A DNA stretch of 36,141 nucleotides from a virus. The stretch is taken from positions 119-36,259 of IMG/VR virus record IMGVR_UViG_3300000116_000073; one strand, written 5' to 3'. The notes beneath the pieces are model-generated. The model was not told the DNA's origin and made no database searches. It saw only the letters and a list, made by a program, of their open reading frames with translations. The position numbers were made by a program, and so were the translations under genes. Shown in pieces: positions 8,189 through 34,157 of this stretch. Every line of letters begins with the position of its first letter. Positions within the stretch are counted from its first letter, which is position 1.

Positions 8189-8190
8189 CA

Positions 8191-8610: not shown

Positions 8611-8611
8611 C

Positions 8612-10693: not shown

Positions 10694-10711
10694 TTCGCAT
10701 AATATACTTCA

Positions 10712-13700
10712 ATGACGACTAACCCAAATAAGGTCTCTCAGAATATTCTGAATCAACTTCCTGATTTTATAAAATCAGATTTTCCTGCATTTGAGAAGTT
10801 TTTAGAATATTACTATAAGTCTCAAGAGAAAACAGGTCAACCTCAAAATATTCTCAACGAACTCAAGTCTTACTTAGATATTGACAGTTATGACTTTGGA
10901 CTGATCCAGAGTAAAACTTCATTACTTGAAGATGTTAGCGCAACATCTGATATTATCACGGTTGAAAGTGTAGATAACTTCCTTCAAGACAACGGAAGTC
11001 TTTTAATCAATGATGAAATTGTTTACTATGAAAGAGCAGATAAATCACCAGAAATTTCTCTAACTGATGGAGTTTCTTATCAAGAATTTCGCGAAAAATG
11101 GATTGAACTTCAAAGTCCATATTTAAACTTTAATGGTGTACAAAGGTCTTTCCCACTACGTTCGGAAAATAATCCTGTTTCTGCACCCTCACCAGATCAT
11201 GTTGTCGTAAGGTTGTTTGGCAAGTATCAGGTCCCTAATGTTGATTTTATAATTTCTGGTACTGATATTATCTTCACCGATCCTCCAAGATCGCCAAACC
11301 CATCAGATTCTGTTGAACAGACTGGTATTTTTTACCTGAAAGGTTTTCTTCAAGATGCGATTCAAGTATTAGATGATGTTTCTAGTCAGTTTAATTCTGC
11401 AAAGAAAGAATTTTTAATTCAGACTAATGGAGTAAAGTATAACCCAGTTCTTGATGTATATCTTAATATCATCATTGGGGATAAGCTTCTAGTTCCTTTT
11501 GTTGATTTTACTATTGTAAGTGATGGAATTAATAATATCCTAAAACTTACATCTGCCCCTACTCCAGATCAGGGAATATATATCGCTTCTATTGAGGCAC
11601 CTATCAGTAGTTTTGGTAGTGGAGCTTCTGCTGTAGCACAAATTGCAACAAATGGAGAACTTAGCGGAATTCGTGTAAAATCTGGTGGTTCTAACTATAG
11701 GATTCAGTATCCACCAGCAGTTAATATTGTAACTACCGTAGGTGGTGGCGGAGCAGCTGCATACTCTCTAGTCAATGGAATCAAAACTTTACCTCTTTTG
11801 AGTGGTGGGGCGGGATACAGTGATTTGAACCCTCCTATTGTAGATATTGAAGTTCCCACCGCAGCTGGTGGAATTAGGGCTAAAGCTACCGCTATAGTTG
11901 AAAACGGAACTGTTACTTCAGTTACTCTTGACGACTCTGGAAGTAATTTTACATTCACACCTAGAATTACATTTAAAGATCCTGGTGGATGCGTACTTAC
12001 ATATCCAACAGTTGATGTCAATGGATCTTTGAATTCGGACTCAATTCAAATTACTTCTGGTGGTGTTGGATATACTGTTCCCCCATCAGTATACGTTGAT
12101 GCTCCAACTGGTTCAGATCCAGTACAAGCAGAGATCAATGTAACTATCGCAGACGGCACTGTAACAGGTTATACGATCACTAATCGTGGAAGAGGGTATA
12201 CTGCATCCCCTAGGGTTGCTGTAATTGATCCTGGTGCTGCTCAGATTCTTGATGTTTCTGTTGATAGTACTGGTAGGGTAATTGATATTGAATTGCTATC
12301 TGGTGGCTCTGGATATGTTGACATTCCGTCCATCTATATTGTAGATAACAGAAAGGATGCTTCTGGAGCATATATTGGTGGAGTTGGTGCTACTGCGGTA
12401 GCATCCATCTTTAACGGACAAATTACGGATTTGAATATCACGAATTTTGGTACTGGATACGATCCCGCAAATCCACCCAGAGTTGTTATTCAAAGACCCC
12501 CTTCTGCCAACGCTTCTGCGGAAGTTGGATTCGGTGAAGTGACTGGATTCCGTGTAGTTGAAAATGGATCTGAGTATACCAAAGCACAATTCGTTGGATG
12601 CTCTCGTGGTGTCTCGGCTATTGTTGGATATGATAGTGATGGTAACGTAATATATGAAGATAATACTGTTCCTGCAGCACATTCCGCACTTACTACTGAA
12701 GTTGAGTGTCTTGATGGGGTATTCATTGAAAAAATGCTCACTAAATTTACTGAGCAGTATCTTCCAGACATTCCAAAAATTGACCTTAAGAAGATTAATA
12801 TCAATACGGTCATAAAAAATATTCGTACCTTCTATGCATCAAAAGGTACTCAAAGATCCATTCAGTATCTCTTTAAAATTCTGTATGGTGAAGATGTTAG
12901 TGTAACTTATCCAAAAGAGCAGATCATTAAACCATCTGCGGCAAGTTGGCAGGTTGACACTATTCTAAGATGTATTATTGTTGATGGATCATCTGCAAAT
13001 CTTAGGGATGGATTTCTTCAGCAGTTCCAAGATCAGGTAGACCCCAACATTGGATTGGCATCTGCTCTAATTGAAAACTTTATTTCAATTAAAACTTCTG
13101 AGCTTGAAATTTACGAATTGGTTCTTTCAGAAGAAACTATTAAAGGTTCTTTTACTATTCCGTACAAGACTAAACTAGCAGAAGCTATTAGTACTACAGA
13201 TAGTGTAATTACAGTTGACTCAACGATTGGTTGGCCAGAAAGAAACGGAGAAATCCTTATTGGAACGGAACTTATCCGCTATAAGGAGAAATCACTTAAC
13301 CAGTTTATTGAGTGTACTCGTTCAGTAAATAATATTGTTGAAGATTGGGATGCAGCTACGGAAGTTACTTCCAATTTTTATGCATATGTCAACTATGGAC
13401 TGCCAACACAAGTAACAGTCAACGTTGTCGGTATTATTAAAGCGGAAAATACCACACTGACTGATGATGGTACTTATTATCTTCCTGGAGATAAACTAAC
13501 CGTCTCTAAGTTAGGCGCATCTGAAACTACTCCACTACTAAACACTTGGAATTATAATGTAAAGAAACTTGTTTCTGTTGATCGTATTGAGTTTGGTGGC
13601 GTTAATAATAGAACTGCTACTGTATATTGCAACAACCCACACGGTCTTTTGGTTGGAGACCAAGTAACCATTTATGGCGCAAACCCAATTCTCTTTAATG

Positions 13701-16700
13701 GCACGTATTTTGTACAATCTAGAGAGTCTACGACTGTATTTAAATATGAGTTAGTTCAACCTGCTGCTACTGTTCCTCAAGGAAATATTCTAATTTCGGT
13801 TGACCTTAACAGGGGTAAGTCTGATATTGAATCTATTAATAATGTTATTAGCATTTACACTACAAATATTCAGAATGCATTTTTCAATGATAATTATGTT
13901 TACATTGCTGCTTCTGGTATACCCAATTATAAGATTGGTCCTTTCGCAGGACAAGCACTAATTCCTGGTAATCAGCGTAAACTATTGAGATTCCCTAGAA
14001 GATCTCAAACAATTTCAACAAAAGATACAATCAAACCTGGTCCAATTGGATCTTGGGTAAATGGAGTATCTATCTGGTCTTATAAGTCTGATCTGAAAAA
14101 AATCTTCGGAAAACTTACAGCAATCAATATTACCTCTCAGGGTGATTCATATGATGCTGCTTCTCCACCAGCTCTCACTATTTCTGGTGGGGATGGAGAT
14201 GATGCTGCTGGAGTAGTAGTTATTAATGGTTCTATTACCAGTATTGATGTTGATAATACTGGTACTAACTATGCTGAACCTCCTCTAGTATCCATTGTTG
14301 GTGGTGGTGGTTCTGGAGCATCAGCAACTGCTGTTGTTACCAATAGTGTAGTATCTAGAATTCTTATCACTGATGGTGGTACTGGTTATATTTCCAAACC
14401 TGAAATCACCATTGTTGGTGGTGGTGGATCAGGTGCTACTGCAACGGCATCAGTTAGAGGACCTATTTCTGCTGTCAATCTGACTAATACAGGAACTGGA
14501 TATACCTCAGAACCTACAGTAACGTTAAGTTCTGGTTCTGGTGCTCAAGCACAAGCAATTGTACAAAATGGTCGTATCATCTCTATTGCTGTTATTAACG
14601 CTGGTTTTGGATATACAACTCCTCCAGAAGTAGAAATTTATGGTAATGGTTTTGGTGCTATTGCTAGAGCAAATATTGATACTGATGGGGAGAACGCTGG
14701 ACGTGTTACAAGTATCTCAATTTCCAATAGAGGTATTAACTATGAATCTGGTACTACTGTAATTATCTTACGTTCTGTAGGATCCAATGCAGAATTCCAA
14801 GCAACTGTTCAAGATTGGAATTATAATCTTGCATTTAATACTACTCTTGATAATGCTCAAGGTTCTGTATTTTCTGGATTTAATAACCAGTATGGTGGTG
14901 AGTATGCACACTTTACCAATCCCAAGAGACTGAGATTTGTTCTTGGAGATAATCTTCTTGAGGATTCTAATGGGAATTTAACTGAAGCCACAGCAAACAT
15001 TACTCACTCTCCAATCATTGGATGGGCATTTGATGGTAACCCAATTTATGGTCCTTACGGATATGGTGACCCAACTAATCAAAGTTCAAATGTCCGTCGT
15101 TTAGAACCAAGTTACCAATTGAGGTCTGAATTGGTTCTTGATGCACAGACCAATCCAAATCCAATTAGAACTGGTGGTCCTTTGCTCTCAGGTGATGCTG
15201 CAGGCACCTTTGTAGAAGATTATGAGTATACCTTCGGAGAAGGTGACTTAGACCGCTACAATGGTCGTTTTGGCAAGACTCCTGAGTTCCCTGATGGTGT
15301 CTATTCTTACTTTATTTGCATTGACGCAACTGCAGAAGGAAATTCTGTATATCCATACATTATTGGACCACAGTTCAATTCTAGTGTTGATAGTTGGAAC
15401 CTTTTAGCATCTGCAACTCAGCAAAATATTCCTGTTGGTGTTATCCGTTATCGTGACCCTTACGAAAATGTTGATATTGATGTTGAACGTCAACCTAATG
15501 CTACTGCGGACCTTTTAACCACCGAAGATGGATTAGAACTTACATTTGAACCTATTTGGGAAGATGCTGATGGAGATAATGTAATTGATACCAATTATCA
15601 AACCGATGACGATGGAAATCCTATAACTCCTTTAGTACGTCTTGCAACTAGAAATGATGATAGAGTATTCCGTTTAACGTTTGATCAAAATACAATTACT
15701 ATGGCAGTAGGTCAAACCTACACTATTCCAGCATACGTTACTACTGATAGTCAATATGCAGCATCTACTGGTATTTTAAATTTCCAAGTATTGCAAAATG
15801 GAATTACCAATAGTACTGTACTTGGACGTATTGTATCGGTAGAAAAATTCATTCCAGCTTTTGATAAGACTTACGATCAATATATTGGATTGGACTTTAC
15901 TTACACCGATAGCGATGGTGTATCGCAAGGTAGTGCAAATATCACCGATATTGAGTTTGTTGGATTTAGAGCAACTACGGAACTTGAGGATAATGTAACT
16001 GAAGAACTGAATGATGTTGGTTCTTTACTGGAAGAAAATAAACTTGAATTGTTTGATTACTTCCCTAAAGTTAGATTTGATTCTAAAGTTGACATTGAAG
16101 TTGAAACTATTACCAAGTTTGAAGATGCTAAAGTAAATGCATTTGTAGTAGAAAACCCTGGCGATAGTTATCAGGTTGATGATAGATTAGTATTTGATGA
16201 TACTGAGACTGGCGGTTATGGAATATCGGCAACTATCAAAACTATTCAAGGTAAAGATGTTTCTTCTTATACCACAGAACTTATTGATGATGTTCCTCAT
16301 GGAGTAGTTCAAACTGACGGACCACATGAACTGTCAGTTGGTGATAGAGTTGAAATGCTCTATGATCCTAATATTTCTAATGAAAATAGACAGTATAAGG
16401 TCAAAGTCGTAAATGGTGTTGAGAGAATTGTAGTAACTCAAACTGGTACTGGTTATAATGATGATGTTCCTATCACTGTTGAAATTGATGGTGATGGACA
16501 ACATGCTGATATCAAACCTATAATCAATGTCAGCAATGGTACTGTTTCTACTTTTAATATTGAAAAATCTGGTAATGGATTTACCGAAAATCCAAGATTG
16601 ATTATTTCACATCCACAAGAATTTAAGAAATCTGAATATTTTATTAATGGTACTCAAAATCTAAACAATACTGTAATCAATTCTACCTATACCAGCGACA

Positions 16701-19700
16701 TAACTAAAGAAATTTATGTCTGTGGTAATAGTTTAGATGAATTTAACAACAGAGTCGGTTTTGTTGCTAAGTACTCACCATCTGGAGATATCATCTGGCA
16801 AAAAACTGCTAGATCTGAACAACCTAGTGGAGCGGATACATTCTGTGATTTTAAAGCAATCACAGTAGACGAAACAAGTCTTTCTTTGGATGTATATGTT
16901 ACTGGTACAACTAAACCCAATGCACTAAACGTCAATTACAATCCTGATATTGTATTGATGAAGTTTAATCAGAATAGTTCTGGTTCTAGTGTTAATATTC
17001 AATTCCAAAAAGAACTTGCTGGTATTTCTGGTTCTACTCGTTTGGATGAAGTTCAAGCAATCTGTAAAGTTGGAGAAAATAAGTGGGCCATTGGTGGTCA
17101 TACTAATACAAACTCCAGTAATCCTTTTGATGCATTCTTAATTATCTTTAACGAAAACTTAGGTATTCAGCAGAAAAGAAAAGTTGCTACTGCAAGCGAT
17201 TCCGAGAAAGTTAGAGATATTGTATACAATCCAGATAATAACAAATTCTACGTTCTTTTAGAAATTGCTCCCGATACTACTAGCGCAGTAAAGTCTGCCG
17301 CAATTGTAACGTGTGAAGCGACACAGTTTGCTCTAGTTATAGATGGTGTTCAAAACTTTACTACTACTAGTTACAATCTTTGGGATGCTAGATTTGATTT
17401 AGATGAATTTGGAGATTTCTTAATCGCAGGTACTTCTTATTCTGGATCTAATCCTATTGGAGTTTTTGTTGGTAAAGTAACTCCTGCAGGAACTGTTACT
17501 TGGGGTAAGAGAATTACTCCATTGGGAACTTTCAGAAATCTTCAAGTTATCGGTGGCAATGTTGATGTATTTGGTAATTATAATATTGCAATAAACTATG
17601 AGATTAATGAATCTACATCAACTTCAGAAGCATTTAGAAAGCAGAGTGAGGTTGTTAAGTTCAAATATGATGGTAGTGTAGTTAAATGCAATAAGATCAG
17701 TTTGGATCGTAATATTGTCGGTTTTGAAGTCAATGATATTTCCTCAGACAGTTCTGGTGATCCAATTGTAGTCGGACAAGGATATCGCAACGAAGTTGTT
17801 GCTCTATTTGATTTTGAAGCAACTACAGAAACAGAACCTGTTGATACTACTGGTAACATTACCAATAGAAATATTATTGGTGACTACTATACAGGTTCTA
17901 ATATTGCTAGTGGAGCACCTACTGGAGTAGGAAGCACCCGTGCTCTCAGGATTGATGCTCATGATGGATCTGCTTGGTCAGATACTCACTTTGTAATCAA
18001 TCCAGAAAATAATACTGGAATTTATGGATATGCCGATACCTTTAATCCTAATAATAATTGGACTATTGAAGGTTGGTTTGGCGTAACTGAGACTACTGTA
18101 CTTCAAGACAGTAGACTTGGTGGACTTGGATCAACTCATCATACATTACTGGCAATCGGTGATGGAAATACTCCAGGTCTTGCTCTTCAGTTAGATCGTT
18201 CCAATAAGGCACTGAAACTCTTTGTTTCTGCTACTACAACTAGAACTGCATCACCAATTACTACTGTAGGTGGAATTATTGCTAATGATGCTGGATATGT
18301 TCATATTGCTGTAACCAAAAATGGAAACTTGTTCACCATTTATGCTGATGGAACATCTGTTGGTAGTGGTTCACTTCCAGCATTAACTATCCCAAGTACT
18401 GCTAAAATTTATCTGGGTAATGTTCCTAATTGGACTGGTGCTGCTAGTGGATTTACTATTGAATCTGCAGGATCTTTTGATGTTGATGGTCTGAGAATTA
18501 CTGATAGAGTCAGAACTATTTCTGTACCTTCGGTTTCATCTGAATATAATGAGTACTATAAGACATATCATTACACCGAAGATACTTCAATCATTTTAAA
18601 AACTGACAAGAATATTGATCTTTCTCGTCAGGGTACGTTTGTTGGAACTAATAGTAATTTCCACTTTACTACTGCATCATATACATATCCATCTACTATC
18701 AATCAACCAGTTACATCTGCAGCGGTTACTCTTGCTTCTGAAGGTCTTCAAGTTCTAGATTATAATGATGTAAACTCTTCACTTGTTCTTGATAGTGTAA
18801 CTCTTACTTCTGTTGCTGATGTTTGGTCTTCAAGAACTGCAACTGTTCCTGCTCTTGGTGGTAAAAAGGTAAAAGCAACTACCACAACTTTTGGTAAGTT
18901 TTATATTAAGGTTACCAATACTGTTCAAGCAGATAATGTTTTAAGACTTACTTTAAATCAAACTTACAATCTTAACGTTGGGTCTGTATTAACTCAGATT
19001 AATTCAGCAGGACAAACTCTGGGACTTGGTACAATTATTGATATTACCGATTCTGGTATCTTCATTGCTCAGTATGGTAACGAAAGCACCTGGCAAGGAT
19101 TTGCTGGCAGTGGAGAAATTACTTCTAGTGGACTAGAATCAAATACAATTGCTTCATCAATATTTCCAAATGTACCATTTACAACAACACAAGGTACATT
19201 TATCTTTGACATTCCAGTTGGAACAGATGCAAGATTCAAAACTTATGCACAAGAAGATTTTAGTATAAGAATTGATAATACTGCACCTGCAGGATCTCCA
19301 TATATTATCGGTAGTGTAATCACACCAACAGAAGATCAGGTTACTTATAATGCAGATAGATCTCAGTTAACAATTAGTGGATTGACTGCTGTTACTGAAG
19401 TTACTCTGGTCACCAACCTGGACAAGATTCTTCAGATTACTGCCGTCAATAATACCGATAGAGTATTTGTTAAGACTGAAAAGGCTCATAGACTAAACTT
19501 AGGAGATAATCTTTTCATTACTGGAAATTCTGATGCTCAGTTCAATGGATCATTCTCAGTATCCCAGTTAATTTCTTCTAGAGAATATGCAATTACGTTG
19601 AGAAGTATTGCAACTGCTGCGCTATCAACTGCATCTAGTATTGAGATCTTTACGAAGCATCCTGTGCTTCAGTTGTTCTACAATCATAAGTATCAATTTA

Positions 19701-22700: not shown

Positions 22701-25700
22701 TTACTGGAAACACAGTAGTCGCAAATAGGGGTGCTGATGGTACAGCTGTAGTCGGACACCAAACTAACAGTAATGTTTTTGGTACTACTATTGAAGTTGG
22801 AAACAAAGTTGTACTGAGTAAAACTGCTGGCACGTATCAATCGTCTCCTGGCGTCTTTGATATTGTCATTGGTGATATTATCATTGGACAGCAAAGTGGA
22901 ATTGTTGCTGAGATCACTGGTATTCAGTCATATAGAGACCCTGTAACTGGAGCTGCAAATAATCAAGTTATTATCTCCGAAGGATCATCTTTCTTCGGTA
23001 TCGTATTCAATAGAATCACGAGTGTTGATTTCCAAAACGTTGTTCTGGATAATATTTCTCAAACTCAGTTGCAGTTGACTGACATTAATGATTCTGCAGT
23101 TGAATTTAATACAAAATTCCCAAATTCGGAAGTAGTAAGTAATTTGGTTCTTGAGTATGAAAATGCGACAAGCGACTTTACTATTGAAGAACAACTTAGA
23201 AATAATATTATAAACTACTCTAATCTTAACGGTGACCTGGTTGACGGTGAGACTGTAAGGGTTTATAAATTGGCATACAATCCAGCATATTATGCTCCTG
23301 ATGGATTGATACTTTCTGGTGATCGTATTCGTAGTGAGAATGCTACTGCTGAAGTCATTGGTACTAACTATGCTCGTGGGTATTTGTACTTAGGTAAGGT
23401 TGCTAGACGTGCAACTGATCTTCATGTACCAATTGCAGGAAATGGCGCGATTGTCTCTTCTCTTCAGAAGAAATTTGGAGCAGGTTCGTTGTACCTGAAT
23501 GGAACTGCTTACGTTGACATCCCTAGCAATAGTGATTTTGCATTCTCAACTAATGACTTTAGTATTGAGGCACAAATTTATGCTAGTGCATCTGCTTTAA
23601 CTGGAACTGCTACACTTTTGGACTTCCGTGCTGCTTCTGCCTCAGAAGTTGCAGTTAGACTATATTTGCAAAATGGTCAACTTCGGTATAATATTAACGG
23701 AAGTGATCTTCTTGCTGCAGGAACTATTGCTCAGGACACTTGGACTAGTATTGCGATTACCAGATCAAGTAACACTATCAAGATGTTTATTGATGGTGCT
23801 CAAGTAGCTAACGGTTCGGACTCCAATACCCATATAGCAAAACCAATTAAGATTGGTGCTGATTATGCAAATGCAAATGCGTTTGCTGGGTATATGGATG
23901 AAATCAGAATTTCTAGCACTGCAAGGTATACCACCACATACACTCCTGCAACTGGGATGTTCCAAGGAGATGCAAATACTGATCTTCTACTCCATTTTGA
24001 CGGAGACAACCTCTCTACTACTTTCTTAGATTGGTCTGGAGCACCTACATGGAATCAAGGTGATGAATTTGTCAATGGAGAAATTGATTTTAGATTCTAT
24101 GATGCTTCAAATGAAATTTTGAATAATCGCAATCTCATTACGAATGAAGCGATTTATCTTCTTGATAGACAGTATCCAGCCTTGCATATTCCTCTCTTAG
24201 CAACAGATATTGCAATCACTTATGGTGCAGAGTTCTATGATGTAATTATTTCAAACTTGGATCTTATTGCCAACGAAGCATATGAAGTAATCAATCCTTC
24301 TGTTCCATCTGGAACTACTGCTCAAGATTGTATTGATGATGTTAAAGATGTAATCAGAAATATCGCCTACAACCTTAAGTACGGTTTCAATAGTAAAGTT
24401 TGGGACGCTGCTGATCTTTATGTAAATGGTGGAGCAATTCAACACCTGACAGGTGTAACTGCTGCTTCTATTAGTGTATTCAATAAGGCAAGAGATATTG
24501 CTAAGGATATCATTAATAATACAACAGTTACTATTACAGGATCTCACGGTCTTACTCAAACAGAAAATACTAACATTCCATTCATCTACGAAGGTTATAC
24601 TGCTGCCGAGGACAGAATTACTGCTCTCACTAAAATTGTTACCGATACACTATCCGATCCAGGTGGATCTGATGCAGTAACATATCCAAGTTCTACCGCT
24701 ACTTTAGATAGAACTCATCCTTCCTATGCATATTGCCTGAGAGATGCTGGTCTTTGGGTTGACTCTATCGCCTATGACTTGAGAAATACTGGAAACAGTA
24801 AGTCATGGGATGCCGCGGCCAATTATGTTGATCGTACTGATCCTTCAAATGTAGTAATCAATCATGTTGCTGGTGAAGAGGGTGAGACAGTATGGGCAGT
24901 TGATAAGGTTCGCGACTTTGCAATCTCAGTAATGCGTGGCGATCTTCTTACTATTACTGGTGATCATGGTCTAACACAAGTTGTAGATGCAACTATCACT
25001 AGAGACTCGTCTTCTCCATACTGTGCCAACGTCGCTTCGGCAATCACGATTTATGCTGATATTATTTCAGATACTATTGAGCAGGCAAATCTTGCTAGTC
25101 CCGTAGATCATCTTGGTACTGTAACTCGGGTTGCTCCAACTAGTTTACATGGATCTGGAGTAGTTGACTCTGCTATTGTATCTGAATTTACTTGCGATAA
25201 AGAATTTGCAGATTCTGATCTGTTTGTATCAACTCAACTTTGGCCCGATTCTCAGAATAGATTTAAAGATGCTGCTACTTTGATCCGTGCTAACGCTGGA
25301 ACTATCGTTGATGAAACTGCAGGAGATATGCTAGCTCGCTATCCAGAACTCGCTTTGGATATGCCAAGAAATGCTAATGGTACTTCTACTCTAGGAACCC
25401 TAAGATGCAAAACTGACCTTACTCTGTTACTTAATTCTATCGCAGATGATATTGAATTTGGTGGATCAGGTAATACAGTAACTGCATTCAAGTTCTACTT
25501 AGGAGCAGAGGGTGAGATTCTATTCATCCGTCTACAACTCTTGCAGTCGCTTTACGCTCATGAACGCCTAGCATTCTATGCTAAGGCAGCAATTGACGGA
25601 ACTTTAGTCGCAAATTACTCCGATCGTGTTGTAATTCCTCCTGCAGGAATCACTAATGATCCTGGTGGATGTGCTGATGTTAAGTCTGCTATTGATACTT

Positions 25701-28700
25701 TGGCAGATCTGATTAATGAAACTCTTGCTCCTACGGGAGATAGGTTCCGTGATGCTGGAGATCTTTTGATCTTTAACCAGACTTATATTGCTGAAGAAGC
25801 AGTTGGTCTAATGCAAGAAGAGTTTAGTTATGTCAACTCTGGTGGTATCACAATTAAGACGTTTGACTATCCTGGTGGTGACATTGACGGAAAAGCAAAA
25901 TGTGTTCGTGATATGGAGGAAATTGTCAAGTCTATTGTTTCTGACTTGTTAGTTGGTGGCAACTATAGTACTGTTGAAGCAGCAAAACTATATCTTGATT
26001 CTAATAATAAGATTAATCACGTTGAAGATCAGATTGCACCTACTGTAGAGGCAATTGAGCGTGTAGGTTTCCTTTGTAAGAAGGCGGTAAACAACCTCCT
26101 ACAGAATACTGGTGATGGATCACTTGGATTTGAATTCTATGTTCCTAGATTTACATTAGAAAGTGCATATACTGATGGTACTATTACTGATAGCACCGAT
26201 GATGGAGATACGAACAACTATGGATCTAGAGACTGTACTAATGTAAGATCTGCTATTGATACTCTAATTTCTACAATTATTGAGATCCTTGCTCCTGGAA
26301 GTGAATCTGCTCGTTCTTCTAATCAGCAGGTTATGTTCGGTAGAGAATATATTGATACCGAACTTAGACAAATTGTTCTTGGAGATTGGGGTGATGTATG
26401 GAAAACTTCTACTGGACAATGGGTCACTGATAGAGCATACGTTGCAGGATCCATTATTAGTAGCGGTCCATATCTCTATCAAGCACAGAATACAGAAACC
26501 TCTGGTTCTATAGCACCTACACACTTGAGTGGAACTGTTATTGATGCTACTCCAGATGAAAGTGATGTAAATAACAATGCGAATCCTGTAGGTGTCAATT
26601 GGACATTCGTTGAATTTGGTAAGGATTATTGGTTGGATCAGTTTGTGCAGGATGCACTTTATGATAACATCACTACTCCAGATGTAGTTTCTGCTCCATA
26701 CGAGGTAGAAAATGCTACATACGATCCTACTAGTGGTGACCTTGTTATTACTAGTTCCGATCATGGTCTTACTACCAGTGATGGCATTTTCATCACACCA
26801 AATTCTCTGACATTTACATGCTCTTCTGATAACTACAATAGTTACAATAAGTATCCAAGACAAACTGATCCAGCATACAAAGAAAAACTTGCAATTACTG
26901 CAGTAACTACTGATACCATAACAGTAAACGTTGGAGCATCACCTACCGTCAATTACAATGTCGGAGCTGGCACAACATATGATGCTGGAAATGGTGTATT
27001 AGTACTCAATATCGGCAATCATGATTTGTTTGAGAACACTTCAATCCGACTTGCAGATAATTCTCTCACATTTACTTGTACCTCTGATGGTAATGTTTCT
27101 AACGAGACATATCCTCGTTCTGGATCCGATCCTTATGCAGGAACTACAATCAATATAGATGCTGTTGGTACTGATTCATTTGATATTGATGATGCTGTAT
27201 ATGTTCCTAGTACTGGAGTTCTTACACTCACTGTAGTTGGCAATTCCTTCGTTAATGGAGATAAGATCAGAATAGAAGATGAGTCTATCGTATTTACTTG
27301 TGGTTTAGATAATGATGTAACCGAGCATGCATATCCTCGTTCTTCGGATCCTTTCAGCTACAAGTGGTTGACGGTATCTAATGTTACTGATGATCAGTTT
27401 GATGTTAATGTTGGTGTTTCTTCAAATACTTCTGTCCATATCTTCAAATACGCCCTTGATAATGCTTTAGATCATCAAGACGGAACTATCACGCTAAATG
27501 TTGGAAATGCAGGATCTGCAGCAGGAGAAGCTCACACATTCATTAGTGCTACTGCTAATGCTGTAATTGCTGGTGGTAATTATACACATCAATTTATTTC
27601 AGCTACATCTGACGCCATTCAAGGTCCTGTTGCACAAAGCAAATTTAACAATACATCAACTATTGATAGTTTAATCTTTATAGATTCGCCTGTAGAAAAT
27701 GAAACTTCTGCAGTCAATATTTGGCCTGCTGGTGAAAGAGAAGAGTTTGGTGCTGGCGGTTGGACTGTAACTGGTGGTACTGTAGTTGCTGATCAGACTA
27801 TAGCTCCCGATAAGACTAATACTGCAGACAAGTATATTCCTGGAAATAATACTACTGCTAAGGTTATAGAAAGAACTTATTCTCTACCTTCATTTGATAC
27901 TTTTGATGATGATTCAATCACCTTTGACGACACTACTAATACTCTTGACGAAGGTGCTAACATCTCCTTCCAAACTTACACCTGGTCTTGTTTCGTTAAG
28001 CAAGATGAGTTCTTTAAGTTCCGTCATAGTATTGCCTGGAGTGCTACCGATAAGGCAGAATTTACTTGGGATGCTGTAACTGGTGCTGTTGGACCTTCAC
28101 TGTTTGTTAATGGTAACGTTATTGTTGGTGACAACATAACGAGTTCCACCAGTTTTGCTGACTCGGAAGCAAGGAAAGGTATTGATTGGGGTGTCAAACC
28201 TTATGGATTTGGTTGGTTCCGCCCATTCATCACTATCCAAGTTCCCTTTGGTATCTCTCAGTTAGATATCAAAGAATATATGTTGAACAACAGTGGTACT
28301 TTAGCTGGTACTGGTTCGGAGGGTGATGGTACTTCAGGTTCTTATATTTGGGGTGCTAAACTCAATAAAGGAGGTCTGGATATCTATACCTCTGTTAGTG
28401 GTGAAGGACTGTATGTCAGTGATGAATATAACATCAAGAAATTCATGATTGATAAGACAGAAGATTTGATTGAACTTCAACTCAATAATACTCAAGTCAA
28501 CCCTGCTTTGGAATCGGGAACCATTCCAAATTATGATCTTCAACTAACTGAAAATTATACTACTGCCTCCACGATGTTGAGATTCAGTAATACCTTTAAT
28601 CTCTATAGGGAGCAACTGAAAGACAGTGAATACTGGCTCACAGTACCTAAGATTTCTGGAATCACTGTTCCAAATCAAACATATGTTCAGGGTAACTCTA

Positions 28701-31162
28701 GAAATGTCCCAGTTTCTCTAACCAAAAAACTTGATAGTGCAGATTTCTTCTACGGACTATCATCTAACACTCAAGGTGAAATTGAGAAAATTACCTTTAA
28801 TGAGTCTACTGTCGCGGCCATTTATAAGAGATTTAAGTTTAATGCAGATCAAGTAAATCTTGGTACTGCTCTTGCAGACTTTGCTCTGGGTGAGACAGTT
28901 CAGACTACTGGAAATGCTGCAAATACGGGAACAATTTATTCTCTGTATGCAGATGAGAACTTCAGATACATGGATGTTGTTGTTACTGGAGGAACTTTCA
29001 GTCTCTATGATGGTTTGACTGGTGCAGCTGCAGGAACAAATCTTGAGGGTGGTACTGACTTAGTTGGTTCATTCATTAATTTGACTAACGCGGGTGCAGA
29101 TGTCAACAGAGTACAAGGTTCTTATACAGTATCTTCTATTGGTGGTAATGGAAGCGGCGCATCATTTACGGTTTCCGTTGATGATACTGGAGCAGCAAAC
29201 GTTATCATTGATGCTGGTGGTACTAGTTACCAAGTCGGAGATGTGCTAACACTCCAAGATGTCAGTATGGGTAATGGTGGAGGTAATAATATTACTTTAG
29301 AAGTTGATACTTTAACTAACGCGGGTATTCAAGTTTCTACTGATAGACTTCAGGTTATTGATTTGGTCAATGGTATTGGATTTACTGCTGGATATCCATT
29401 CAAAGGATATACTTCAGGATCTAAAGCAGATACCTTAAACTATATCAGTAACAGAGGTGCTGTTACCAACAATACTGGAGGAAGACTAACTCTTGACACT
29501 GAGTCTCTTGAAGGTACTTTTGAAGATACCTCAGTAATTTATCCAGATCAGACGAGAATATTCTTGGACTTGATTGTTCATCCTGGTATTCCAACTGGCA
29601 TTGATGTTGGTGATAACATTGTTGCTACTGGATATACTAGGTTGGGTATTTCCTTGGCTGGTAGTTTTGCATCTTCAGATTTCGTTGTTGGTGATCTTGT
29701 ATATCAAGCAAACTCAAATCTATCTCAAATCTTCCAAGGTGCATATGGATATGTTACTGGATGGGATGATGCTAACAACTACCTATATGTCTCTCCGATT
29801 GGCACTTCTGTCTTCCAGAATGGTCAAAACGTAGCGCAGTATCCGTTAGGCAATACTCAGACTCCTAGAATCTTCGGGCAAGTTTCCACGACTGTTAATC
29901 AGACTACTGTAGCGTATGGAACAATCACTCGTATTGATCAAATTGGTCTAAGTAGACGTGTATATCTCGCAGATGTTGTTGGCACCTTTAGTGGCAATGA
30001 TACGGTGGTCTCTGACGCTGGATATATAGCAGCAGCATATGAGAAGATTGATATTCAAGGTAGAACTAGCAGATACTTTGTAGGATTTGATGGTACGCAA
30101 ACATCATTCAAACTGACTGAGAATAATGGTACTCCATACTTCCCAGATGCCGAAGGTCATATGATGATCTTTGTCAATGGTATCCTACAACCTCCTGGTG
30201 CTGCTGGATCTTATACCGCATTCTCTGATACTATCTTGTTCAATGAAGCACCTACGCTGGGTTCTTCCTTCACTGGATTCTATCTTGGTAAAATGCGTCA
30301 ACTGGATGATATTAGCTTTGAGTTTGACTCCTTGCGTTCGTCCTTTAACCTCAAGCGGGATGGAACTTTCTACTCGCTCGCGCTTACGGAAGGTGTTCAG
30401 GAGACTGAATCTATTATCGCAGATAATAATATTATTATCTCTCTCAATGGTGTTATTCAGGAACCTGATGTTGGTTTTGAATTAGTCGGTTCTCGTGTCA
30501 TTTTCAAAGAGATTCCTCGTGTAGGATCCACATTTGTTGGATTTGCTTACATTGGTTCTGATGCAGACGTTACAAGATCCGAGGTTGTACCTCCAATTGA
30601 ATCTGGAGACTTACTGCAAATTCAAGGTGAAAATGTAGATAGAGAGGTCGCAGTTATTGAATCTGCAAATACTCTAGTAACATTTGAATATATCGGATCC
30701 GTGTTTGGTCGTGACGCTCAAGGTACTGCTAACATTCTCAAGGGAAGAGTTAACGGAGTTCAGGTAACTAATCCTGGTTCTGGATATACTGCTCGCCCAA
30801 CAGTTCGGATTGATTCATCTTCTGGTTTTGATGCAGAGATTAAAGCTCTGGTGGGTGTCTCTCGTGTAGACACTACCAATCCTGGTTCTGGTTATGGATA
30901 TCCTGAAATTGATGTTCTCACATCAGTTCCCGATGACTGGACAAGTCCAGATATTACACTATATGGAGAGGAACCATTCTTCTCACAGGAAATTATTGAT
31001 CCTGAGATTCAGCAGATCGCACCAGAAGATCTTAGCAATATCAATAGTGGAGACATCGCAGGTCAAGGTCCATCCGACCCCACCCAAACTCCTACTACAC
31101 TAACTGATTTTGCAACTACAGGAACGTCAAATACATCCAACGTTTGGGTGAGTGGATCATAA
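10712..31162 (+). CDS. giant modular virion protein (6816 aa), in gp7 position
   Basis: One open frame of 6816 codons directly follows gp6, where T4 has wedge gene 7 (1032 aa). The N-terminus (LPDFIKSDFPAFEKFLEYYY) and residues 703-734 (RTFYASKGTQRSIQYLF, LYGEDVSV) look like the conserved wedge-attachment part of marine phage baseplate proteins. Then come modules: glycine-tyrosine beta repeats (294-630, 1134-1357, 1907-1970, 3134-3367, near the end), a YHYH-like domain (about 1370-1553; FDGNPIYGPYG), a seven-blade propeller-like region (1985-2365), LamG-like domains (2367-2610, 4243-4430), Cys-starting helical repeats (4463-5237), three SxxFTC repeats (5327-5577) and LNGVIQEP-type fibre repeats at the C-terminus. 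A baseplate-anchored adhesion fibre is the likely role; gp7 homology is inferred. Confidence 0.85.
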   Translation: MTTNPNKVSQNILNQLPDFIKSDFPAFEKFLEYYYKSQEKTGQPQNILNELKSYLDIDSYDFGLIQSKTSLLEDVSATSDIITVESVDNFLQDNGSLLINDEIVYYERADKSPEISLTDGVSYQEFREKWIELQSPYLNFNGVQRSFPLRSENNPVSAPSPDHVVVRLFGKYQVPNVDFIISGTDIIFTDPPRSPNPSDSVEQTGIFYLKGFLQDAIQVLDDVSSQFNSAKKEFLIQTNGVKYNPVLDVYLNIIIGDKLLVPFVDFTIVSDGINNILKLTSAPTPDQGIYIASIEAPISSFGSGASAVAQIATNGELSGIRVKSGGSNYRIQYPPAVNIVTTVGGGGAAAYSLVNGIKTLPLLSGGAGYSDLNPPIVDIEVPTAAGGIRAKATAIVENGTVTSVTLDDSGSNFTFTPRITFKDPGGCVLTYPTVDVNGSLNSDSIQITSGGVGYTVPPSVYVDAPTGSDPVQAEINVTIADGTVTGYTITNRGRGYTASPRVAVIDPGAAQILDVSVDSTGRVIDIELLSGGSGYVDIPSIYIVDNRKDASGAYIGGVGATAVASIFNGQITDLNITNFGTGYDPANPPRVVIQRPPSANASAEVGFGEVTGFRVVENGSEYTKAQFVGCSRGVSAIVGYDSDGNVIYEDNTVPAAHSALTTEVECLDGVFIEKMLTKFTEQYLPDIPKIDLKKININTVIKNIRTFYASKGTQRSIQYLFKILYGEDVSVTYPKEQIIKPSAASWQVDTILRCIIVDGSSANLRDGFLQQFQDQVDPNIGLASALIENFISIKTSELEIYELVLSEETIKGSFTIPYKTKLAEAISTTDSVITVDSTIGWPERNGEILIGTELIRYKEKSLNQFIECTRSVNNIVEDWDAATEVTSNFYAYVNYGLPTQVTVNVVGIIKAENTTLTDDGTYYLPGDKLTVSKLGASETTPLLNTWNYNVKKLVSVDRIEFGGVNNRTATVYCNNPHGLLVGDQVTIYGANPILFNGTYFVQSRESTTVFKYELVQPAATVPQGNILISVDLNRGKSDIESINNVISIYTTNIQNAFFNDNYVYIAASGIPNYKIGPFAGQALIPGNQRKLLRFPRRSQTISTKDTIKPGPIGSWVNGVSIWSYKSDLKKIFGKLTAINITSQGDSYDAASPPALTISGGDGDDAAGVVVINGSITSIDVDNTGTNYAEPPLVSIVGGGGSGASATAVVTNSVVSRILITDGGTGYISKPEITIVGGGGSGATATASVRGPISAVNLTNTGTGYTSEPTVTLSSGSGAQAQAIVQNGRIISIAVINAGFGYTTPPEVEIYGNGFGAIARANIDTDGENAGRVTSISISNRGINYESGTTVIILRSVGSNAEFQATVQDWNYNLAFNTTLDNAQGSVFSGFNNQYGGEYAHFTNPKRLRFVLGDNLLEDSNGNLTEATANITHSPIIGWAFDGNPIYGPYGYGDPTNQSSNVRRLEPSYQLRSELVLDAQTNPNPIRTGGPLLSGDAAGTFVEDYEYTFGEGDLDRYNGRFGKTPEFPDGVYSYFICIDATAEGNSVYPYIIGPQFNSSVDSWNLLASATQQNIPVGVIRYRDPYENVDIDVERQPNATADLLTTEDGLELTFEPIWEDADGDNVIDTNYQTDDDGNPITPLVRLATRNDDRVFRLTFDQNTITMAVGQTYTIPAYVTTDSQYAASTGILNFQVLQNGITNSTVLGRIVSVEKFIPAFDKTYDQYIGLDFTYTDSDGVSQGSANITDIEFVGFRATTELEDNVTEELNDVGSLLEENKLELFDYFPKVRFDSKVDIEVETITKFEDAKVNAFVVENPGDSYQVDDRLVFDDTETGGYGISATIKTIQGKDVSSYTTELIDDVPHGVVQTDGPHELSVGDRVEMLYDPNISNENRQYKVKVVNGVERIVVTQTGTGYNDDVPITVEIDGDGQHADIKPIINVSNGTVSTFNIEKSGNGFTENPRLIISHPQEFKKSEYFINGTQNLNNTVINSTYTSDITKEIYVCGNSLDEFNNRVGFVAKYSPSGDIIWQKTARSEQPSGADTFCDFKAITVDETSLSLDVYVTGTTKPNALNVNYNPDIVLMKFNQNSSGSSVNIQFQKELAGISGSTRLDEVQAICKVGENKWAIGGHTNTNSSNPFDAFLIIFNENLGIQQKRKVATASDSEKVRDIVYNPDNNKFYVLLEIAPDTTSAVKSAAIVTCEATQFALVIDGVQNFTTTSYNLWDARFDLDEFGDFLIAGTSYSGSNPIGVFVGKVTPAGTVTWGKRITPLGTFRNLQVIGGNVDVFGNYNIAINYEINESTSTSEAFRKQSEVVKFKYDGSVVKCNKISLDRNIVGFEVNDISSDSSGDPIVVGQGYRNEVVALFDFEATTETEPVDTTGNITNRNIIGDYYTGSNIASGAPTGVGSTRALRIDAHDGSAWSDTHFVINPENNTGIYGYADTFNPNNNWTIEGWFGVTETTVLQDSRLGGLGSTHHTLLAIGDGNTPGLALQLDRSNKALKLFVSATTTRTASPITTVGGIIANDAGYVHIAVTKNGNLFTIYADGTSVGSGSLPALTIPSTAKIYLGNVPNWTGAASGFTIESAGSFDVDGLRITDRVRTISVPSVSSEYNEYYKTYHYTEDTSIILKTDKNIDLSRQGTFVGTNSNFHFTTASYTYPSTINQPVTSAAVTLASEGLQVLDYNDVNSSLVLDSVTLTSVADVWSSRTATVPALGGKKVKATTTTFGKFYIKVTNTVQADNVLRLTLNQTYNLNVGSVLTQINSAGQTLGLGTIIDITDSGIFIAQYGNESTWQGFAGSGEITSSGLESNTIASSIFPNVPFTTTQGTFIFDIPVGTDARFKTYAQEDFSIRIDNTAPAGSPYIIGSVITPTEDQVTYNADRSQLTISGLTAVTEVTLVTNLDKILQITAVNNTDRVFVKTEKAHRLNLGDNLFITGNSDAQFNGSFSVSQLISSREYAITLRSIATAALSTASSIEIFTKHPVLQLFYNHKYQFMMGDPSLEGYFFSFSKDNLFKLEYSFNSIQRVGTPGIQAGSDPEPYVQLSVANDVTNISYYFDPSRVGDTSPVDQGTYLDVVTSPYKGNFVLNRLDGATITTGATIFKFPLLNETESTATASRTTYATYSKAAAGPIGEIRLISGGGFYTKLPVVSDIISNRKIERVEITEPGTEYAVGEYTGVSISGDGEGGKVNITVEDGTDDEGGVIPGQISRIVVTDPGKAYTTAFIDIESIAGILGSSLAGSGADLKVVIPPNGNGASVFVKADEIGKIKKLKNNNFGFDYTHDYTLRPEITFPVNVQLTSTSILDSITVTDPGSGYATPPAVEIAGGGGNGATAEATIRNGRIDQIEVKDPGAGYSSQPTVSLKSQFNYVVNLDLNLLQFSFPHGITNGAAVTVNVNDDGSGVDPALPISSFGRLNTATTYYAISGIGNSLEDDQLRLSLTADNAAIGDFISFTNAGDGRQQLLTDSFGGAASANVITGRFLAGEYVYQGETQEQATAFGYVSNNDGWQEGPRILKIVDYTGTFTSQERLTGTISKASGTIDNLSIARGVLEVGAITSTPGRFIDDIGKPSEIIQKIQDSYFYQDFSYSVQAPVPISDWREILTTNVHPGGFKVFGELGLVESGTIENKTTSFELTKSVNLAESAIVPNLQNFTLVEPVYTDFDNTEVRFRQKNLTSSEQILTSTVQKINDISQLFDGERISFPLEVENRDGDGNPVTEPVIAAANQLIITLNGIVQSPEEAFTVQGSNVVFASPPQPPANVQYATATLGFKTIYRMDLTNISGIFPLIGGSIRGVVSDINATVVAVGTTTIDFYYEYSGDAFTIGENIFSGATGFSGDLATITDITPQNLFQFKEEIENLRNDTATIEEVNLEGNNGIVLSTIPNGLSATGTTFDVADGYKLSDVSIASVGSGYSDDIDGIATTGGSGTGLTIEVDANGDGTVASVKIKNFGSGYNIGEVVTLAAGNNDATLTIVADVGGVYQIDSERFSVVSITGNTVVANRGADGTAVVGHQTNSNVFGTTIEVGNKVVLSKTAGTYQSSPGVFDIVIGDIIIGQQSGIVAEITGIQSYRDPVTGAANNQVIISEGSSFFGIVFNRITSVDFQNVVLDNISQTQLQLTDINDSAVEFNTKFPNSEVVSNLVLEYENATSDFTIEEQLRNNIINYSNLNGDLVDGETVRVYKLAYNPAYYAPDGLILSGDRIRSENATAEVIGTNYARGYLYLGKVARRATDLHVPIAGNGAIVSSLQKKFGAGSLYLNGTAYVDIPSNSDFAFSTNDFSIEAQIYASASALTGTATLLDFRAASASEVAVRLYLQNGQLRYNINGSDLLAAGTIAQDTWTSIAITRSSNTIKMFIDGAQVANGSDSNTHIAKPIKIGADYANANAFAGYMDEIRISSTARYTTTYTPATGMFQGDANTDLLLHFDGDNLSTTFLDWSGAPTWNQGDEFVNGEIDFRFYDASNEILNNRNLITNEAIYLLDRQYPALHIPLLATDIAITYGAEFYDVIISNLDLIANEAYEVINPSVPSGTTAQDCIDDVKDVIRNIAYNLKYGFNSKVWDAADLYVNGGAIQHLTGVTAASISVFNKARDIAKDIINNTTVTITGSHGLTQTENTNIPFIYEGYTAAEDRITALTKIVTDTLSDPGGSDAVTYPSSTATLDRTHPSYAYCLRDAGLWVDSIAYDLRNTGNSKSWDAAANYVDRTDPSNVVINHVAGEEGETVWAVDKVRDFAISVMRGDLLTITGDHGLTQVVDATITRDSSSPYCANVASAITIYADIISDTIEQANLASPVDHLGTVTRVAPTSLHGSGVVDSAIVSEFTCDKEFADSDLFVSTQLWPDSQNRFKDAATLIRANAGTIVDETAGDMLARYPELALDMPRNANGTSTLGTLRCKTDLTLLLNSIADDIEFGGSGNTVTAFKFYLGAEGEILFIRLQLLQSLYAHERLAFYAKAAIDGTLVANYSDRVVIPPAGITNDPGGCADVKSAIDTLADLINETLAPTGDRFRDAGDLLIFNQTYIAEEAVGLMQEEFSYVNSGGITIKTFDYPGGDIDGKAKCVRDMEEIVKSIVSDLLVGGNYSTVEAAKLYLDSNNKINHVEDQIAPTVEAIERVGFLCKKAVNNLLQNTGDGSLGFEFYVPRFTLESAYTDGTITDSTDDGDTNNYGSRDCTNVRSAIDTLISTIIEILAPGSESARSSNQQVMFGREYIDTELRQIVLGDWGDVWKTSTGQWVTDRAYVAGSIISSGPYLYQAQNTETSGSIAPTHLSGTVIDATPDESDVNNNANPVGVNWTFVEFGKDYWLDQFVQDALYDNITTPDVVSAPYEVENATYDPTSGDLVITSSDHGLTTSDGIFITPNSLTFTCSSDNYNSYNKYPRQTDPAYKEKLAITAVTTDTITVNVGASPTVNYNVGAGTTYDAGNGVLVLNIGNHDLFENTSIRLADNSLTFTCTSDGNVSNETYPRSGSDPYAGTTINIDAVGTDSFDIDDAVYVPSTGVLTLTVVGNSFVNGDKIRIEDESIVFTCGLDNDVTEHAYPRSSDPFSYKWLTVSNVTDDQFDVNVGVSSNTSVHIFKYALDNALDHQDGTITLNVGNAGSAAGEAHTFISATANAVIAGGNYTHQFISATSDAIQGPVAQSKFNNTSTIDSLIFIDSPVENETSAVNIWPAGEREEFGAGGWTVTGGTVVADQTIAPDKTNTADKYIPGNNTTAKVIERTYSLPSFDTFDDDSITFDDTTNTLDEGANISFQTYTWSCFVKQDEFFKFRHSIAWSATDKAEFTWDAVTGAVGPSLFVNGNVIVGDNITSSTSFADSEARKGIDWGVKPYGFGWFRPFITIQVPFGISQLDIKEYMLNNSGTLAGTGSEGDGTSGSYIWGAKLNKGGLDIYTSVSGEGLYVSDEYNIKKFMIDKTEDLIELQLNNTQVNPALESGTIPNYDLQLTENYTTASTMLRFSNTFNLYREQLKDSEYWLTVPKISGITVPNQTYVQGNSRNVPVSLTKKLDSADFFYGLSSNTQGEIEKITFNESTVAAIYKRFKFNADQVNLGTALADFALGETVQTTGNAANTGTIYSLYADENFRYMDVVVTGGTFSLYDGLTGAAAGTNLEGGTDLVGSFINLTNAGADVNRVQGSYTVSSIGGNGSGASFTVSVDDTGAANVIIDAGGTSYQVGDVLTLQDVSMGNGGGNNITLEVDTLTNAGIQVSTDRLQVIDLVNGIGFTAGYPFKGYTSGSKADTLNYISNRGAVTNNTGGRLTLDTESLEGTFEDTSVIYPDQTRIFLDLIVHPGIPTGIDVGDNIVATGYTRLGISLAGSFASSDFVVGDLVYQANSNLSQIFQGAYGYVTGWDDANNYLYVSPIGTSVFQNGQNVAQYPLGNTQTPRIFGQVSTTVNQTTVAYGTITRIDQIGLSRRVYLADVVGTFSGNDTVVSDAGYIAAAYEKIDIQGRTSRYFVGFDGTQTSFKLTENNGTPYFPDAEGHMMIFVNGILQPPGAAGSYTAFSDTILFNEAPTLGSSFTGFYLGKMRQLDDISFEFDSLRSSFNLKRDGTFYSLALTEGVQETESIIADNNIIISLNGVIQEPDVGFELVGSRVIFKEIPRVGSTFVGFAYIGSDADVTRSEVVPPIESGDLLQIQGENVDREVAVIESANTLVTFEYIGSVFGRDAQGTANILKGRVNGVQVTNPGSGYTARPTVRIDSSSGFDAEIKALVGVSRVDTTNPGSGYGYPEIDVLTSVPDDWTSPDITLYGEEPFFSQEIIDPEIQQIAPEDLSNINSGDIAGQGPSDPTQTPTTLTDFATTGTSNTSNVWVSGS
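11590..12600 (+). repeat. glycine-tyrosine beta repeats, N-terminal block of giant gene
   Basis: The encoded protein repeats a roughly 30-50 residue unit of the form GGxGYxxPPxVxI, Gly/Ala-rich spacer, then xGxVTxVxxxxxG (residues about 294-630). Further blocks lie at about 14110-14780, 16430-16620 and 20110-20810. The same unit occurs in the genes at 4309 and 34164. Confidence 0.7.
16660..17800 (+). other. propeller-like region of the giant protein
   Basis: Residues about 1985-2365 contain some seven units, each with a beta hairpin such as EIYVCGNS, DVYVTGTT, KWAIGGHT, FLIAGTSY or PIVVGQGY, followed by a strand ending in FVAKYSPSGDIIW or VGKVTPAGTVTW. This matches the SBBP/Kelch-like beta-propeller pattern in which each blade reports value and context strands. 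A seven-bladed propeller is the best reading; the exact blade count needs structure prediction. Confidence 0.6.
17800..18540 (+). other. LamG/concanavalin-like module 1 in the giant protein
   Basis: Residues about 2364-2610 show the LamG-type jelly roll signature: NNWTIEGWF, a long strand series, AGYVHIAVTKNGNLFTIYADG (VxVTrxGxxxxlYvDG type), then AKIYLGNVP and DVDGLRITDRVR. Such modules bind glycans or proteins and are common in phage fibres. Confidence 0.7.
23440..24000 (+). other. LamG/concanavalin-like module 2 in the giant protein
   Basis: Residues about 4243-4430 repeat the pattern: GSLYLNGTAYVDIPSNSDF, NDFSIEAQIY, TWTSIAITRSSNTIKMFIDG, IKIGADYANANAFAGYMDE and IRISSTARYT. This is the classic domain order of concanavalin-like lectin modules with a closing D-E-(V/I)-R-I strand. 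It is clearly separate from module 1 and less compositionally simple. Confidence 0.75.
24100..26420 (+). repeat. Cys-starting helical repeats in the giant protein
   Basis: Within residues about 4463-5237 two alternating helical units recur. One has CIDDVKDVIRNIAYNL, CLRDAGLWVDSIAYDL, CKTDLTLLLNSIADDI or CVRDMEEIVKSIVSDL, followed by a small loop and AAxLYL-type helix. The other has CADVKSAIDTLADLI or CTNVRSAIDTLISTI. Four of the first and about three of the second are seen, each opening with Cys. This is an all-alpha island inside an otherwise beta protein. Confidence 0.65.
26740..27440 (+). repeat. three SLTFTC repeats in the giant protein
   Basis: Three copies of a roughly 95-residue unit carry NSLTFTCSSDNYNS, NSLTFTCTSDGNVS and ESIVFTCGLDNDVT, each followed by a YPR/DP turn and a strand pair. 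Each unit places its Cys at the same spot. Confidence 0.7.
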
Positions 31163-32978: not shown

Positions 32979-34157
32979 ATGGCAAAAGAAATTCTACAAC
33001 TTGGTAATTCTGCCAACGACGGAACGGGAGATTCCCTCCGAGCGGGTGGCACTAAAGTTAATGCAAACTTTACCGAGCTGTACGATTCTCTCGGGGGAAC
33101 TGCAGGTGCCACTGCATCTTTGATTAGTACAGCATCTCCAAATCTAAGTGATGCATTGACATGGAACGGCACTTCATTTTCTCCTGGTATTCCCAAGAAT
33201 AAAGGCATTCTTGAGCAAAACTTGAATGTTAATGGATATAATATTGTATCCTCTTCAAATGGTAATGTTCTGATTCAATCAGATGGTACTGGAGATATTG
33301 TACTTAGAAATACTTCAAATAGTACTGATACTATTATTGATGGCACTGATGGATTCTTAAAATGGAGAGCACCTTATGCATCTGCGGCAAATCTACCAGT
33401 ATCTAGTAACTACGATGGAATGTTTGCTTATGTCGCTGATGTAAGTAAAGCATACTATTCTAACGGAACTGCTTGGATTAATTTAATTGATACTTCTACT
33501 GGTAGGATTCAAGACCTATCAAACGTTGCAGATACATCATATACCGATGGTGAGGTTCCTACTTGGAATGCTGTTAATGGACAATTTGAACCTGGAACTG
33601 GTGGTTCTTCTGGTGGTGGTAACATCTTTGCAACGTTCAACGCGGATGCAGGATCTACCACTGCGTTGGGTGCCACAGACACACTGACAGTAACTGGTGG
33701 TACAGATATTACTACTACAATTAGTGGTGATACTCTGACCATTAACTATTCTGGTGGTGGGGGTTTCCAATTTACTGGCACACCTTCGGAAGGTGACACT
33801 CTCTTTTATGATGGAAACAATTGGGTTCCTGTTACTTCTCCTATAGTTGCATGGGACTTGGGTGCTAATGGATCTTCCCACTACACTTTCACTGGAGCGG
33901 GATTTACTGGTGCGATTAATGACCCTGCCTTGTATCTTCATAGAGGGCAGACTTATTTGTTTAATAATTCTAATAGTTATACTGTCCATCCGTTTGAAAT
34001 TCGTCAATCTAATGGTGGTTCTGCATATACTGCTGGAATCACAAATGATGGTGCTGGAAGAACAACATTCGTAGTTCCTATGGATGCTCCTTCTACGCTT
34101 TATTATCAGTGTACCGTTCATGGTGCAATGGGAAATCAGATCGTAATCGTATCGTAA
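32979..34157 (+). CDS. tail fibre/baseplate protein with gp9/gp10-like N-terminus and cupredoxin-like C-terminus
   Basis: The 392-residue protein opens with LGNSANDGTGDSLRAGGTKV then NANFTELYDSLG, the attachment motif shared by T4 gp9, gp10 and fibritin (GN..DDGTGDxLRxGGxKxNxNFxELY). Residues 60-290 are beta-rich fibre-type sequence with Gly/Thr/Ser repeats. The last 97 residues resemble a small blue-copper (cupredoxin) fold: His337 (VHPFEI), then Cys378, His381 and Met384 in YYQCTVHGAMG. The C-x2-H-x2-M spacing is that of amicyanin. Whether copper is bound is untested. The N-terminus argues that this is a baseplate-attached virion protein, so the domain would be displayed on the particle. 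Confidence 0.75.
   Translation: MAKEILQLGNSANDGTGDSLRAGGTKVNANFTELYDSLGGTAGATASLISTASPNLSDALTWNGTSFSPGIPKNKGILEQNLNVNGYNIVSSSNGNVLIQSDGTGDIVLRNTSNSTDTIIDGTDGFLKWRAPYASAANLPVSSNYDGMFAYVADVSKAYYSNGTAWINLIDTSTGRIQDLSNVADTSYTDGEVPTWNAVNGQFEPGTGGSSGGGNIFATFNADAGSTTALGATDTLTVTGGTDITTTISGDTLTINYSGGGGFQFTGTPSEGDTLFYDGNNWVPVTSPIVAWDLGANGSSHYTFTGAGFTGAINDPALYLHRGQTYLFNNSNSYTVHPFEIRQSNGGSAYTAGITNDGAGRTTFVVPMDAPSTLYYQCTVHGAMGNQIVIVS

Follow-up and report, generated by a model that had tools for sequence, protein, structure and literature searches.

The window analysed here is a stretch of 36,141 nt covering nearly all of a 36,259-base virus record (IMG/VR IMGVR_UViG_3300000116_000073, positions 119 to 36,259). 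More than half of it is a single gene whose product is, to judge from sequence comparisons, very probably the gp7 baseplate wedge protein of a marine T4-like cyanophage, at about 6.6 times the size of T4 gp7. The helical part of this protein, around residues 4458–5221, consists of phycobiliprotein-like domains in tandem. Four lines of evidence agree on this, and the array appears to be undescribed in the literature that could be searched.

A single gene of 20.4 kb

The gene and its neighbors in the baseplate region are as follows.

8191..8610, + strand: gp25 baseplate wedge gene (Pfam GPW_gp25, 2e-18; phrog_261)
8612..10693, + strand: gp6 baseplate wedge gene (Pfam Gp6-like_1st, 2e-17; phrog_219, 2e-223)
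10712..31162, + strand: giant ORF, ATG start, 6816 aa, probable giant gp7-family baseplate wedge/adhesion protein
31185..32948, + strand: downstream YHYH protein (Pfam PF14240, 9e-40)
32979..34157, + strand: gp9/gp10-like wedge/tail-fibre connector (Pfam T4_gp9_10_N, 1e-6; phrog_677)

An earlier, sequence-only reading of the window had described one gene without a stop over 6816 codons, and this was confirmed: a single ATG-started frame runs through 10712..31162 with no internal stop and a stop codon at its end, while the remaining five frames contain 235–890 stops over the same interval. The likelihood of 6816 stop-free codons, calculated from mononucleotide frequencies, is about 10^-203, and a chance ORF is thereby ruled out. 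In isolate genomes the orthologue is one annotated CDS of 6076–7312 aa (ACG-2014d, 6817; S-SSM4, 6932; P-SSM4, 7312; Syn9, 6076; S-SZBM1, 6619; S-RIM8, 6395 aa), and the frame stays open until the available DNA ends in all 80 IMG/VR loci spanning the N-terminus and all 79 spanning the centre. Because isolate CDSs and IMG/VR loci show one unbroken frame, intact in hundreds of homologues, an assembly error or frameshift is also ruled out as the source of the ORF. Values of dN/dS per 300-codon bin were 0.055–0.19 against ACG-2014d and 0.05–0.23 against S-SSM4, and thus show purifying selection along the whole length. The product has a calculated mass of 732 kDa and a pI of 4.4, and in the closest relative the gene takes up about 11% of the genome (20,454/179,111 bases).

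Several features of the surrounding DNA were also observed. Upstream of the baseplate operon lie two neighboring 2OG-Fe(II) oxygenase genes (526–1916; Pfam 5e-6 and 4e-15) and, flanked by hypothetical genes, a CDS for a small MazE/AbrB-like protein (3755–3940; Pfam 2.5e-5). Directly downstream of the giant gene are two further YHYH proteins (31185–32948 and 34164–36141), giving three within 26 kb. The end of the 32979–34157 protein and approximately residues 320–455 of the 34164–36141 protein both carry an H..(~40)..C..H....M pattern that by eye resembles a cupredoxin copper site; these stretches gave no Pfam match at 1e-3.

Relationship to gp7

The size estimate of 6–7 times T4 gp7 was accurate (6816 versus 1032 aa, 6.6-fold), and the proposed correspondence with the T4 gp7 position is borne out by the location of the gene directly after gp25-gp6. 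The wedge-like N-terminus postulated at the same time is supported by Pfam, PDB profile and hhalign comparisons. Pfam Baseplate_wedge matches residues 678–738 (1e-7), and a tblastn search with a 91-aa piece of the core matched 1410 phage records, among which the sampled T4-like records carried the same 25-residue motif and were almost all annotated as gp7 or baseplate wedge. A profile of ten homologues matched T4 gp7 in the PDB (5hx2_A/5iv5, E=8.5e-4) and also 9f4a, and hhalign of the homologue profile against four T4-like gp7 proteins gave a probability of 91.3 (P=9.6e-7, 98 columns), the control comparison of gp7 with phycobiliproteins reaching a probability of 0.1%. In a Foldseek search with an AF2 model of the N-terminal part, gp7 chains ranked 1, 4 and 19, with TM values of only 0.07–0.08 and core helices at pLDDT 40–70; the top match was gp7 9f4a, a weak one (E=6e-3, TM 0.08). 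Searched against viral structures, the model retrieved mainly orthologues.

The giant protein and T4 gp7 (PDB 5iv5, 5hx2) have in common the core motif, the place after gp6 and, in relatives of the giant, presence in the virion. They differ in that the N-terminal part of T4 gp7 (~640 residues) is missing from the giant, whose core is split by an insertion of about 515 aa and followed by some 5900 added residues. It has been stated that gp7 is absent from such phages and replaced by VrlC (PMC7029224). Related genomes carry VrlC as a gene of its own, and the putative gp7 core present in the giant ORF contradicts that statement. The YHYH and LamG/ConA domain types of the giant are the same as those of baseplate proteins of jumbo phages and pelagimyophages (PMC7824862, PMC7029224).

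The giant ORF is not unique: it belongs to a known family of giant gp7 proteins, common among marine T4-like cyanophages. In PHROGs it corresponds to phrog_701 (6136 positions, 'virion structural protein'), a profile covered from position 2 to 6136 over the five pieces in which the ORF was searched. The first 3000 residues matched 471 phage records by tblastn, 281 of them over at least 80% of the query. Compared with the phrog_701 giants of Kyanoviridae (P-SSM4 gp7, Syn9 gp101, S-SZBM1_208), the window protein is an orthologue over the full length that shows only normal divergence, the central cassettes differing between genera; it shares 87.7% identity with the ACG-2014d protein, and the P-SSM4 orthologue is already annotated as gp7. 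Homologues located after gp6 grade in size from 1288 to 7312 aa, and include, below the giants, those of the Stenotrophomonas phage DLP6 (1288 aa), S-CREM2 (1937 aa), S-CAM1 (3032 aa), S-PM2 (3048 aa), ACG-2014f (4225 aa), P-HM2 (4454 aa) and P-SSM2 (5195 aa). The suggestion of a merged wedge-plus-fibre protein, with an adhesin-type architecture, is largely supported. That reading had missed how widespread the family is.

Architecture of the giant protein

Outside the helical array, the following parts were recognized.

10712..11032, + strand: gp7 core, first part, residues 1–107 (putative), aligned with gp7-like proteins of P-SSM2, P-HM2, S-PM2, S-CAM1 and ACG-2014f
11033..12574, + strand: beta-repeat insertion of ~515 residues, residues 108–621, splitting the gp7 core
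12575..13411, + strand: gp7 core, second part, residues 622–900 (putative), FYASKGT..LFKILYGE motif at 707 (Pfam, PDB profile, hhalign)
14708..15331, + strand: YHYH domain, residues 1333–1540 (Pfam PF14240, 7e-15 and 6e-8, one per half)
18035..18517, + strand: LamG/ConA-like lectin domain 1, residues 2442–2602 (Pfam PF13385, 4e-9)
23498..23926, + strand: LamG/ConA-like lectin domain 2, residues 4263–4405 (Pfam PF13385, 2e-17)
26699..27388, + strand: tandem beta repeats, residues 5330–5559 (self-comparison), of low conservation and variable between phages
29909..31009, + strand: conserved C-terminal block, residues 6400–6766, 58–63% identity across giants

The equivalents of residues 1–107 and 622–900 are contiguous in the seven shorter homologues aligned, while the insertion between them is present in the giants. 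This insertion was modeled (AF2) as nearly all strand with a pLDDT of about 90, from an alignment built from the window and IMG/VR loci only. It consists of GxGY..PPxV repeats with internal duplications, and self-comparison in pieces showed that its modules recur at residues 1131–1313, 3300–3367, 3688–3825 and 6453–6735; because of this recurrence, the giant protein probably grew by internal duplication. The C-terminal block is partly made of the same modules (paralogy to residues 137–247 and 1239–1309), and a PDB sequence search found no solved relative for it. Comparison of independent giants shows three blocks of high identity, at about 1–1620, 3000–3800 and 6400–6770, and low identity in between.

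The YHYH and lectin-like parts recognized by the sequence-only reading are supported (Pfam YHYH; two LamG/ConA domains). The propeller-like part is unsupported: a PDB sequence search of residues 1960–2400 gave nothing convincing for a beta-propeller, and this stretch has no solved relative by sequence. An NCBIfam search of the giant ORF returned just one weak fibre-domain match. At 26699–27388 there are three or more tandem repeats of ~80 residues (SLTFTC..DN....YPR..DP), which also occur in P-HM2 and P-SSM2 and are possibly a variable-copy display module.

Presence in the virion

That the product is a virion protein, as had been claimed, is borne out by published mass spectrometry of orthologues rather than of this phage. 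In CsCl-purified virions of S-SZBM1, the orthologue S-SZBM1_208 (6619 aa) was reported as one protein of 724 kDa, detected by 71 peptides with 13.5% coverage, given without peptide positions (PMC9146016), and its length agrees with the CDS aligned here. ORF122 of S-CREM2, the 1937-aa homologue, was detected by 91 peptides in virion mass spectrometry (PMC10665884). The giant protein would be assembled whole. A polyprotein, with cleavage of the 732-kDa product at assembly separating the gp7 wedge from fibre or adhesin portions, would suit the modular make-up and the sharp shifts in conservation at about residues 1620, 3000, 3800 and 6200, but is unlikely given that Pfam, PHROGs and NCBIfam detect no protease or intramolecular chaperone domain in the ORF, that the S-SZBM1 orthologue was reported as a single protein, and that the frame is unbroken in hundreds of phages.

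An array of phycobiliprotein-like domains

The stretch that the sequence-only reading had called helical is indeed so, but its relationship to phycobiliproteins had been missed. The following repeats were distinguished.

24083..24535, + strand: repeat 1, residues 4458–4608, Cys4540, CIDD (phage-repeat HMMs D_B/D_C); the weakest copy
24728..24955, + strand: repeat 2, partial, residues 4673–4748, Cys4675, CLRD (phage-repeat HMMs; hhalign weak alone)
24989..25648, + strand: repeat 3, residues 4760–4979, Cys4899, CKTD (hhalign P=1e-5, PF00502, Foldseek)
25646..26122, + strand: repeat 4, residues 4979–5137, Cys5064, CVRD (hhalign probability 92.4, P=5e-7, 96 columns)
26231..26374, + strand: first part of a fifth helical repeat, residues 5174–5221 (D_C HMM, 1e-10)

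An AF2 model of the array (residues 4675–5240, 53 sequences, mean pLDDT 78) has the phycobiliprotein (globin-like) fold. The best 50 Foldseek matches in the PDB were all phycobiliproteins (probability 1.00, TM (target) 0.56–0.70), with no globin or other helical bundle among them. Their E-values were modest (5e-3 to 8e-2), and the relationship was therefore tested by sequence as well. Pfam PF00502 matched 39 of the 53 relatives (best 8e-5). On the window protein it scored 19.5 bits, under the curated cut-off of 22.2, so that this is a homologous domain not filed as a PF00502 member; PF00502 domains above the cut-off are found in the giant ORFs of S-CAM1, S-PM2 and S-SZBM1. When a profile of the phage array was searched against the PDB, 38 of the 39 matches at E<=10 were phycobiliproteins or smURFP-type designs with that fold. 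Conversely, an HMM of 40 cyanobacterial phycobiliproteins, drawn from 80 cpc loci, yielded 66 matches in a set of 1095 phage frames, all at E<=0.01 (best 4e-14, the S-CAM1 tail protein), and gave E=1.1e-7 on a fragment from the window and 1e-4 on the whole 6816-aa protein. A search with repeats 3–4 matched 364 records; by name, all are phages of Synechococcus or Prochlorococcus or cyanophages except one, an unassigned marine virus.

Individual scores are modest, helical folds match easily, and three non-photosynthetic control genomes give a weak PF00502 signal, all of which might be expected if the likeness were that of a generic helical bundle, arisen by convergence. Such an origin is quite unlikely, however, in view of the uniformity of the Foldseek and PDB profile matches and of two further results. 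The cyanobacterial HMM had no matches among reversed frames, and shuffled sequences scored lower than the real phage domains. In addition, hhalign placed repeats 3 and 4 in the same register on the phycobiliproteins (control probabilities 0.1%), with C-x-R-D and GKAKC..D..LVGG segments in register in these two separate repeats. Descent of the array from the phycobiliprotein family is supported by these homology tests, and most simply the domains would have been acquired from the host lineage. Phycobiliprotein domains in any virus particle have not been described in the searchable literature.

The phage copies share with cyanobacterial phycobiliproteins (PF00502: CpcA, CpcB, phycoerythrin) the predicted fold, the aligned Cys84/Asp87 segment and the surrounding helices. 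They differ in being arranged in tandem within one virion polypeptide, at about 14–22% identity and with long insertions, and in having mostly lost Arg86 and having no known chromophore.

Possible bilin binding and the cpeT neighborhood

The retained cysteines raise the question of whether the array is a bilin-binding phycobiliprotein, with covalent bilin attached at Cys4540, Cys4675, Cys4899 and Cys5064 by host or phage lyases, and so a colored or light-sensing arm of the virion. Among 225–236 unique phage domains the Cys84 equivalent is kept in 93–96% and the Asp87 equivalent in 97–99%, both columns ranking in the top ten of 150 for conservation. In 56 domains with the motif Cys there is no further Cys 25–150 residues upstream, and an intra-repeat disulfide is therefore not obligatory; each repeat nevertheless has another conserved Cys (4987), with which disulfides could form. 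Whereas cyanobacteria invariably have Arg86, only about 31% of the phage domains carry Arg at this position, and within the window the Arg of the C-x-Arg-Asp motif is present in repeats 2 and 4 only. In P-SSM4 the Cys is lost from both repeats.

Gene content points in both directions. The bilin-lyase gene cpeT lies 0.4–3.5 kb upstream of a gene for a related tail protein, on the same strand, in seven cyanophages (S-PM2, S-CAM1, S-H9-2, S-RIM44, S-RSM4, S-CAM4 and ACG-2014e); in six of these the phycobiliprotein-like part was matched beside cpeT, while in ACG-2014e only the N-terminus of the tail protein was matched. Bilin reductases occur in 4 of 12 phage genomes. On the other hand, the cpeT neighborhood is a variable, tRNA-gene-rich spot, and ACG-2014d, the closest relative, carries neither CpeT nor a bilin reductase. 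Overall, we regard a bilin-carrying array as very unlikely. In S-PM2 (163952–177267) and at the S-CAM1 locus (5266–17948), a row of genes was seen consisting of cpeT, a 2OG-Fe(II) oxygenase, the giant phycobiliprotein-domain tail protein and then a short tail fibre gene.

Proposed role and implications

By analogy with T4, each wedge would contain one copy of gp7, giving six in the virion, and the two parts of the N-terminal core would be locked in place next to gp6 and gp25. The remaining ~5900 residues may form a peripheral arm in contact with the cell surface, made up of YHYH domains, lectin-like domains and repeats. Proteins such as those encoded by g10, g11, g12 and others are absent from cyanophages (PMC2984593), and the arm may replace these missing T4 peripheral baseplate and fibre proteins. 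The conserved blocks (~1–1620, 3000–3800 and 6400–6770) are probably fixed points of contact inside the baseplate; the lectins, the phycobiliprotein-like array and the tandem repeats, which make up the variable blocks, would be displayed modules. For the array itself, recruitment for a structural or a binding role is most likely. There is an outside chance that phycobiliprotein domains are built into the baseplate or tail arms of marine cyanophages and that at least some of these phages equip them with bilin using their own CpeT lyase and bilin reductases; if true, this would provide a function for the long-unexplained phage cpeT/pebS genes.

For marine T4-like phages, the 'missing' gp7 would be identified within the giant ORF, and within the family the length of this core wedge protein grades from about 1.3 to about 7.3 thousand residues. 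The array suggests that a fold of the host photosynthetic antenna has been reused in a virus particle, and its phycobiliprotein-like domains make testable the question of why cyanophages carry genes for a bilin lyase and bilin reductases.
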